In this document: in pieces, positions 17,580 through 20,275 of the stretch | Numbering within the stretch: the stretch's first letter is position 1 | Layout: every line of letters begins with the position of its first letter | Assembly: GCF_009708215.1 (NCBI RefSeq) | Contig: NZ_CP046175.1 | Location: forward strand, 2,542,001 to 2,606,000 | Direction of reading: 5' to 3' | DNA from: Occultella kanbiaonis | GTDB taxonomy: Bacteria > Actinomycetota > Actinomycetes > Actinomycetales > Beutenbergiaceae | Length of the DNA stretch: 64,000 bases | The notes under the pieces: model-generated | Told to the model about the DNA's origin: nothing | The model's database searches: none | The model's input: only the letters and a program-made list of their open reading frames with translations | Program-made: the position numbers and the translations under genes

Positions 17580-18884
17580 TCAGGCCCGCACGAGCAGACG
17601 GTCCAACGCGACTCGGCATCCCTTGGTGCCGAGTCGCGTTCCGTCCTTCTTGTAGAACACGGACCCGTCCCCGGTGACCGTGACGCGCACGGAGTACTCC
17701 CCGCGCGGCAGTTCCGGACCGACGTAACGCAGCCCGGACTCCGCGGCGCCGGCGTAGAGATCGATGAGCAGTGAGGCCACGAGAGCGCCGGAGTAGTCGC
17801 GGATCTCGACGAGCGCGTAGCCGCCGTGGTCGTCCGCGGTGCCGACGAGAGCGACCTGGGTCCCCGCGAACGGCACGTCGACGGCGTCCCCTGGCCCCTC
17901 GGACCGGAACGTCACCTCGATCGGTGGTCCGTCGAACACCGACTCCGGGGGGACGGGCTGCACGCGGGCGACGTCCCAGGCGGGCCAGTACTCACCGAGG
18001 GTCAGGCTGGTCCCGTCGACGGTGATGGGCAGCCACACGTAGGTGGCAGCGGACGCCTGGTGCGGGAACGACCACCGGTCACCCATGTACATGGGGACGG
18101 CTGCGCCGTCGACCGGTAGGTCCAGCACGAACGTGCACTGCGAGTTCCAGGTCAGGCTGCCCGCCGGCGCGAGCAGACCCCGATGCGTCCACGGGCCGGC
18201 GAGCGCCGGGGCGCTGAGGTAGTAGTTGTCGTTGCGATCCCAGCTGGTCTTGTTCGAGAAGAGCAGGAAGTAGATCCCGTCCCGCTCGAGCATGGCGGGT
18301 GACTCACCGCCGGGGGCGACGCCGCTGACCACCTTCTGCTCGGCGACGGTGTAGTCCTCGCTGAGCCGGTACACGTCGCCCTCGTGCAGGAGCAGGTACC
18401 CGTTGCCGTCACGGTCGATGAAGGTGCCCATGTCCCACCCGCGGATCGGCTCACCGCCGTGGGTGAGCGCACCGTGGAAGGTGTACTCGCCGTTGACCGT
18501 GTCGCTGGACGCGAGGCCGATCTGGGGGTCCGAGTAGCCGAGGTCGTCGGTGTGCATCAGCATGATGAACCGCCCGGTCGAGGGGCACCTCATCACCTTC
18601 ACCCGCTCGCCGATGCGGCCCGGTCCCAGGAGCCCGCCCGGCTGGGGTGGCAGGACGAGGCGCTCGAACGTCCAGGTGGCGAGGTCGGGCGAGGAGTAGC
18701 AGCTGAACCCGATGAAGCGGTTCTCGTCGTCGGTCTTGTACTCGCCGAACAGGTAGTACCGCTCGCCGTCGGCGACGATGCAGGCGCCGTGGGCGTTCAC
18801 GGTCCGCCCACGATCATCGAACCAGGGGACGCCGTTGACGATCAGGGCAGGGGTCGACGGCGTGGAGCCGGCTTCGGGAGGCAC
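17580..18884 (-). CDS. GH43-like glycosidase with C-terminal accessory domain
   Basis: A 434-residue protein without a signal peptide. The N-terminal 290 residues resemble a five-bladed propeller of family 43: DDRGRTVNAHGACIVADGER is followed by YYLFGEYK, then MRCPSTGRFIMLMHTDD, SPAMLERDGIYFLLFSNKTSWD and WNSQCTFVL, similar to exo-galactanase-like subfamilies. Residues about 315-430 look like a carbohydrate-binding beta-sandwich. Function would be hydrolysis of a galactan- or arabinan-type oligosaccharide in the cytosol or at an unrecognised location. The GTG start is preceded by TAGATT with eight bases between, suggesting a leaderless mRNA. The gene's last codons contain the 14-bp perfect inverted repeat. 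Confidence 0.75.
   Translation of the reverse strand: MPPEAGSTPSTPALIVNGVPWFDDRGRTVNAHGACIVADGERYYLFGEYKTDDENRFIGFSCYSSPDLATWTFERLVLPPQPGGLLGPGRIGERVKVMRCPSTGRFIMLMHTDDLGYSDPQIGLASSDTVNGEYTFHGALTHGGEPIRGWDMGTFIDRDGNGYLLLHEGDVYRLSEDYTVAEQKVVSGVAPGGESPAMLERDGIYFLLFSNKTSWDRNDNYYLSAPALAGPWTHRGLLAPAGSLTWNSQCTFVLDLPVDGAAVPMYMGDRWSFPHQASAATYVWLPITVDGTSLTLGEYWPAWDVARVQPVPPESVFDGPPIEVTFRSEGPGDAVDVPFAGTQVALVGTADDHGGYALVEIRDYSGALVASLLIDLYAGAAESGLRYVGPELPRGEYSVRVTVTGDGSVFYKKDGTRLGTKGCRVALDRLLVRA
17605..17640 (+). terminator. Perfect 14-bp hairpin in overlapping convergent gene ends
   Basis: AACGCGACTCGGCA (17605-17618) and its exact complement (17627-17640) enclose an eight-base loop, 28 bp past the aldo/keto reductase stop. 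The hairpin is entirely within the last 20 codons of the GH43 gene on the other strand. Downstream bases are only moderately T-rich (CCTTCTT). Likely a terminator for the plus-strand gene. Confidence 0.6.
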
Positions 18885-18942: not shown

Positions 18943-19956
18943 TCAGGCCCGCCGGCGCCGGCGGCCCCGCCCCGGCTGCCGCCGCGCCAGCATCGGCACC
19001 ATCGCGACGACGATGAGCGCCGCGCCGACGGCGGCGACGGGGGAGATGCCCTCCCCGAACGCGGCCGCGCCGATGCCGATCGCCACGACCACCTCCCAGT
19101 AGGACAGGCCGGAGAGTTCGGCGGCACGCAGGTGCTTGCCCGCGAGGACGAGCAGGCCGAGGGCGAGGAGCCCGCAGATCAGGAAGAACGCGCCGGCCCA
19201 GGCCCAGTTCTGGGTCGTCATCCCGGACAGGTCCGGCCGGGTCACCGCCACCATCGCGCCGGTGCCGAAGGCGCCGAAGACGAAGTTCCAGAAGCTGCGC
19301 ACGTCGGCGGGCATGTCTGTCCGGTACCGGTAGCAGAGCAGCGCGACCGCGTAGCAGACACCGGAGATCACTCCGAGGATGGTGCCGAGCGTCTCCTGCT
19401 CCGGCGGGTGGGACGAGCCGGCTCCCGAGGTGAGCAGCCCGGCGGCCAGGACCATCCCGATCGAACCGATCCCCAGGGAGAGCACGTCCACCCGGCCCGG
19501 CCGCTCCTTCAGCAGCACCCGGGCGAGCACGGTCGCCAGCACCGGTCCAATGTAGTGGAGCACGACGGCGCGGGAGAGGTCCGTGAGCACTGTCGCGGAC
19601 AGATAGGTGGCCAGCGAGAGGCCGAGGAACACGCCGCCGAGGACCACCGATGGTGACAGTCGGACGCGGCGCAACTGCCCGAGCCGACCGGCCAGCGCGA
19701 GGACCGCGAAGGTTCCGACCGCGCCGACCAGCATCCGGCCGAGCGTCAAGGACTCGCCGATCACGGCACCGGACGGCGTCGCCATCCGGCTGAACAGTCC
19801 GGCCGCACCCATCGCGGTGGCGGACACGATGATCGCCAGGATGCCGAGCCGCCGGTTCGGGCCGTGGCGGGCTGTGTCCGGCTCGCGAGTTGGCCCGGGA
19901 TCGGGCGCTTGAGCCCGGTCGGCGGCGAGCGGGGGCGTGCCGACGGTGAGTGCCAC
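18943..19956 (-). CDS. EamA/DMT superfamily permease under glycine riboswitch control
   Basis: A 337-residue membrane protein with about ten hydrophobic segments arranged as two EamA halves, beginning LGILAIIVSATAMGAAGLFS and repeating at TLGTILGVISGVCYAVALL. It ends in an Arg-rich cytosolic tail. Start choice: an ATG at 20019 lies only two bases after the riboswitch and has no separate ribosome site, whereas GTG 19956 has AAGGAG four bases upstream and removes 21 Pro/Ser-rich residues. I therefore prefer 19956, leaving about 65 nt as expression platform. The riboswitch implies that the carrier handles glycine or a related compound, probably export or tolerance (inference). Family members export amino acids and metabolites. 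Confidence 0.8.
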   Translation of the reverse strand: MALTVGTPPLAADRAQAPDPGPTREPDTARHGPNRRLGILAIIVSATAMGAAGLFSRMATPSGAVIGESLTLGRMLVGAVGTFAVLALAGRLGQLRRVRLSPSVVLGGVFLGLSLATYLSATVLTDLSRAVVLHYIGPVLATVLARVLLKERPGRVDVLSLGIGSIGMVLAAGLLTSGAGSSHPPEQETLGTILGVISGVCYAVALLCYRYRTDMPADVRSFWNFVFGAFGTGAMVAVTRPDLSGMTTQNWAWAGAFFLICGLLALGLLVLAGKHLRAAELSGLSYWEVVVAIGIGAAAFGEGISPVAAVGAALIVVAMVPMLARRQPGRGRRRRRA

Positions 19957-20020
19957 GGGACTCCTTGGGACAGGGCGCGGGGACGCCTGGGACGGGGTGG
20001 TGGTTCCCCGCTCTGTCATC

Positions 20021-20187
20021 GGACCTGAGAGTTTTCGCGAGCCGTGACCCGCTTACACCGTCGGTGAACCCCGAAGGGCTGCTTTCCAGAGGAGCCTCGC
20101 CGCTGGCGGTCCAAGGGGCCTGAGAGTTTCCCGGGGAGGTTGCTCCTTCGGCGCCCGCTGGTGCGGGACTCTCCCGCCGCGGTTCGG
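20021..20187 (-). ncRNA. Tandem glycine riboswitch (gcvT-type leader)
   Basis: Two aptamers read on the minus strand. Aptamer 1 (about 20187-20113) has GGGAGAG, then GGCGCCGAAGGAGCAA and closes with AACTCTCAGG. Aptamer 2 (about 20112-20021) has CTCTGGAAAG, CACCGACGGTGTAAGC and AACTCTCAGGTCC. These are the conserved cores of the two-aptamer glycine riboswitch. GGACC in the linker can pair with GGTCC at the 3' end. A CATAAT -10 box is at 20218-20213, giving a transcript start near 20206. The downstream gene is the DMT permease. Confidence 0.92.
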
Positions 20188-20275
20188 TGGCATTCAGTTG
20201 TCGTACGGCTCCATTATGCCGATGGTCGGCACGGTTCCGGCTGCCCGGCGCGGTGAGATCCGCGCCACACCGCGC

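Follow-up and report, generated by a model that had tools for sequence, protein, structure and literature searches.

Why does a glycine riboswitch stand in front of an EamA/DMT-family transporter gene, in which direction does it act, and what does the transporter carry? These questions are raised by a locus of Occultella kanbiaonis within a 64-kb stretch of DNA (the window, i.e., the whole stretch that was analysed), and they bear on whether bacteria answer glycine excess by export. The main targets of glycine riboswitches in Actinobacteria are gcv genes (74%) and other genes of glycine metabolism (22%) (PMC6944388). In Streptomyces griseus, the gcv riboswitches are reported to activate glycine cleavage for detoxification (Tezuka and Ohnishi, 2014, as cited in PMC5666159).

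A complete tandem glycine riboswitch

The first-pass annotation of this DNA had claimed that both glycine aptamers are present, and full-length matches to RF00504 confirm this. Aptamer 1 scored 58.9 bits (E 1.3e-9) in a scan of the window against all of Rfam, in which it was the only match at gathering level. Aptamer 2 scored 49.2 bits in a search of the genome and in a scan of the region alone; the whole-window scan missed it because it was masked by its 4-nt overlap with aptamer 1. Both scores exceed the cut-off of 32 bits (the gathering score), and all 94 positions of the model (1–94) are matched in each aptamer.

The tandem riboswitch spans 20186–20003 on the reverse strand, directly upstream of the transporter gene (Table 1). 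Two aptamers with a short linker are followed by a single expression platform of ~50 nt and the start codon. Within the platform, hairpin H1 (GCGGGG...CCCCGU) precedes hairpin H2 (GGCG...CGCC), which is followed by the Shine-Dalgarno sequence AAGGAG (19966–19961). As predicted from its sequence, this is an ordinary, complete and intact tandem glycine riboswitch, and not a new kind of system. The candidate −10 element is kept as CATAAT or CATACT in the leaders of Occultella and several Georgenia; a sigma-70 scan did not detect a complete promoter with both boxes, and CATAAT is therefore listed as a candidate −10 element only.

These two aptamers are the only glycine aptamers in the genome of O. 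kanbiaonis (5.65 Mb, one contig). Its main gcvT gene (L076, G000:C1:3012587-3013342(-)) is not preceded by a glycine riboswitch, and the genome holds no SDH_alpha serine dehydratase.

Table 1. Features of the riboswitch-EamA locus, in window positions.
Feature	Position	Strand	Basis and remarks
Candidate −10 element CATAAT	20213..20218	−	by eye
Glycine riboswitch aptamer 1	20096..20186	−	RF00504
Glycine riboswitch aptamer 2	20003..20099	−	RF00504; P1 CUCUG/CAGAG; misleading ATG at 20019 inside
Expression platform	19961..20013	−	folds and comparison of 19 loci
EamA/DMT-family transporter, 337 aa, GTG start	18943..19956	−	PF00892; start from comparison of 19 loci

The transporter gene and its start codon

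That a DMT/EamA permease lies downstream of the riboswitch is borne out by the match of the open reading frame to PF00892 (E 2.8e-20, two repeats). Its match to TIGR00950, a carboxylate/amino acid/amine transporter model, reached 51.6 bits, below the curated cut-off of 230.2 bits. The hydropathy profile has about nine to ten hydrophobic stretches, of which several are merged, and an AlphaFold model shows ten long helices, but with a mean pLDDT of only 38.8. A sequence search found no solved structure of a close relative.

The open reading frame had earlier been drawn from an ATG (18943–20019). This version does not stand, for its ATG (at 20019) falls within the P1 region of aptamer 2 and lacks a conserved frame: across species, the offset between this ATG and the gene covers all three frames (0, 1 and 2), the equivalent codon of O. 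glacieicola (L012/L038) does not share the frame of the transporter, and in L071 it is missing. A conserved regulatory upstream open reading frame from the same AUG was rejected on the same grounds. Instead, a GTG, TTG or ATG is found 3–6 nt behind GGAG[U/C] in 19/19 loci, and most proteins of the clade start with M-A-L or M-A-V. By this comparison, the real start is the GTG at 19956, behind AAGGAG.

The transporter gene is followed after 58 bp by a GH43-type glycosidase gene (17580–18884), likewise on the reverse strand. The GH43 gene is absent beside EamA in O. gossypii and O. glacieicola, and only a fragment is present in O. aeris; in related species, the nearby neighbour is an aldo/keto reductase gene. 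Because the GH43 gene is not kept beside EamA in related species, we leave it out of the riboswitch-EamA unit.

Conservation of the riboswitch-EamA pairing

A glycine riboswitch lies directly upstream of the EamA orthologue in all 19 distinct loci. Their leaders come from Occultella (4), Georgenia-like genomes (13; g66, g116 and named Georgenia species) and the f9 genomes (2), which are Cellulomonadaceae-like as assigned from kinship alone, in a family that was surveyed in part. The transporter of O. kanbiaonis is 93–94% identical to its orthologues in O. aeris and O. gossypii. The leader is kept across the three families though protein identity drops to about 65%. A maximum-likelihood tree unites the riboswitch-bearing proteins in a single clade (100/100) on a long branch. 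The 11 nearest homologues outside this clade have much lower bit scores and no riboswitch, and a thin sampling of 296 genomes over the class and 396 over the phylum yielded no further members. Hence, the association is conserved and tied to one transporter clade, and is no one-off. Together with the position and completeness of the aptamers, the 19 orthologous loci strongly support the first-pass proposal that the riboswitch controls the permease.

Origin of the EamA leader

Georgenia genomes carry a second tandem glycine riboswitch, before gcvP (L074, L075 and L077, in the Georgenia-like genomes G151, G377 and G232). The gcvP and EamA leaders have an almost identical core block in common, CUCUCAGGUCC-AUGACAGAGCGGGGA, also written CTCTCAGGTCC-ATGACAGAGCGGGGA, and a tree of tandem riboswitches places the EamA leaders with those of gcvP, apart from the gcvT leaders (99/97). 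The simplest reading of this grouping is that a gcvP-type leader was copied to the front of the transporter gene, with the Georgenia gcvP riboswitch as a likely source. The Georgenia gcvP riboswitches thus offer a way to trace the duplication of a leader between targets. The Occultella leaders are nested among those of Georgenia with moderate support, which would fit lateral transfer of the riboswitch-EamA unit.

In other genera of the family to which O. kanbiaonis belongs, a tandem glycine riboswitch precedes a gcvT or an L-serine dehydratase gene, as identified from the translated sequences. The riboswitch precedes the serine dehydratase gene in L006, L008, L010, L011, L013 and L014. In these serine dehydratase leaders, GGAGGAAC right after aptamer 2 is complementary to the stretch GUUCCUC that runs from the Shine-Dalgarno sequence to the start, and this pairing is a candidate switching hairpin.

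Folding of the expression platform

The search for intrinsic terminators in the riboswitch-EamA leader came back empty, and a transcriptional terminator switch was therefore rejected. H1 and H2 occupy the stretch from P1 of aptamer 2 to the Shine-Dalgarno sequence; they are recognisable in most species, with differing sequences, and L071 lacks H2. The lack of a terminator and the presence of two hairpins before the Shine-Dalgarno sequence indicate that control is probably translational.

When the leader is folded freely, P1 is broken and the Shine-Dalgarno sequence is paired. Two partners are predicted: either the core strand ACUCUCAGG of aptamer 2 pairs with CC-AGGAGU, or the linker GGCUCCU pairs with AGGAGU. 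We compared native platforms with dinucleotide-shuffled versions, 100 for each species, in 15 representatives. The native platform stabilises the fold that excludes P1 more than shuffles do (Fisher 4e-6) and the Shine-Dalgarno sequence is more closed without P1 (Fisher 0.004), while its gain in accessibility upon P1 formation is not above the shuffled controls overall (Fisher 0.13); these combined p-values overstate the evidence, since the representatives are related and yet treated as independent. In the O. kanbiaonis leader, accessibility of the Shine-Dalgarno sequence gains little from P1 and is low (0.19) even with P1 formed.

In duplex tests against shuffled upstream sequence, the two anti-Shine-Dalgarno helices, with the core strand of aptamer 2 and with the linker, gave p-values of 0.087 and 0.046. 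Neither clearly beats the shuffled sequence, and a single provable anti-Shine-Dalgarno helix was therefore rejected. RNAalifold detected little covariation in the expression platform, as the 5′ arms do not vary and the 3′ arms are misaligned by MAFFT. Overall, the predicted folds give moderate support to translational control in which the gene is OFF when glycine is lacking.

Proposed function and alternative explanations

We consider it probable that the intact tandem riboswitch is a translational ON switch of the EamA/DMT transporter, which most likely exports excess glycine. When glycine is lacking, aptamer 2 would yield to an alternative fold in which AAGGAG is paired, either with ACUCUCAGG, the core strand of aptamer 2, or with GGCUCCU, the linker. 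Binding of glycine would stabilise aptamer 2 and its P1 helix, which would free the Shine-Dalgarno sequence and turn the transporter gene on. The transporter would then most likely export excess glycine and so detoxify the cell alongside the glycine cleavage system. That glycine turns the transporter on is the most likely direction given the homology to gcv switches and the folding. Activation of an EamA gene by glycine in turn suggests a glycine exporter that moves the excess out of the cell; it is from the riboswitch alone that glycine export is suggested.

The opposite direction, with an OFF riboswitch before an importer of glycine (or a small amino acid) that is shut when glycine is plentiful, seems unlikely to us. 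Among characterised amino-acid transporters of the EamA/DMT type, exporters prevail. In addition, the EamA riboswitch is closest to gcvP riboswitches, for which ON control is expected, and the Shine-Dalgarno sequence is more closed without P1, not less. Yet, the known transporter targets of glycine riboswitches, sodium:alanine/glycine symporters, are uptake systems, the glycine riboswitch on the transporter of S. pyogenes is repressed by glycine (PMC5829553), and predicted Shine-Dalgarno accessibility with P1 formed is low in several species, including O. kanbiaonis. We favour an exporter over an importer.

A somewhat less likely alternative is that glycine is sensed while the cargo is a different compound with a link to glycine excess, for example serine, threonine, a further amino acid or some metabolite. 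The substrates of EamA proteins are not predictable from the family, and because glycine riboswitches of relatives also control serine dehydratase, glycine appears to be a signal for neighbouring metabolism as well. Nevertheless, most genes under glycine riboswitches act on glycine or its direct products (PMC6944388, PMC3766115). It is very improbable that the aptamers are degenerate or chance remnants of a gcv leader, with no role in regulating EamA. The EamA riboswitch does appear to stem from a leader of the gcvP type, but each aptamer matches the model over its full length with a score well above the cut-off, and the leader has persisted in every locus despite the divergence of the protein.

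With glycine export as the preferred reading, there is about an even chance that the whole clade consists of DMT-superfamily transporters dedicated to glycine export, under a glycine ON riboswitch copied from a glycine-cleavage leader. If so, detoxification would proceed through export and not through breakdown. Riboswitches can reveal the physiological substrate class of anonymous transporters, and here a glycine sensor marks a well-defined EamA clade as candidate glycine transporters in a family whose substrates usually cannot be guessed.

Comparison with known systems

EamA is a well-conserved target of glycine riboswitches that is apparently new to the literature: the open-licence full texts searched do not name it as one, and the single paper that brings up both EamA and glycine riboswitches assigns EamA to another riboswitch class (PMC7266159). 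An older survey lists three transporter orthologue groups as targets, which its main text does not name (PMC3766115), and gcvT-gcvH-glyA-sdhA operons are published targets (PMC12452182). The pairing extends the glycine-riboswitch regulon of Actinomycetota beyond cleavage and serine metabolism.

Among the closest known systems are the gcvP and gcvT riboswitches of Actinomycetota (S. griseus; Georgenia gcvP), which also consist of two consecutive glycine aptamers. The Georgenia gcvP leaders further resemble the EamA leader in their core block and in having one expression platform before the Shine-Dalgarno sequence. However, their target is a glycine cleavage gene instead of a transporter, and the EamA leader has a second hairpin (H2) before the Shine-Dalgarno sequence. 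The sdaA (L-serine dehydratase) riboswitches of close relatives, which belong to different genera of this family, likewise have tandem glycine aptamers, but control another gene and form a separate riboswitch clade (100/99).

Glycine riboswitches on transporters are known from the sodium:alanine/glycine symporters of S. pyogenes and Vibrionaceae (PMC5829553, PMC6944388), which belong to another transporter superfamily than EamA. Moreover, the S. pyogenes switch works through premature termination of transcription, with glycine as the repressing signal (PMC5829553), whereas the EamA leader has no terminator. Conversely, ykkC subtype 2d riboswitches also have an EamA transporter under their control (PMC7266159), but differ from the glycine riboswitch in RNA class and ligand.
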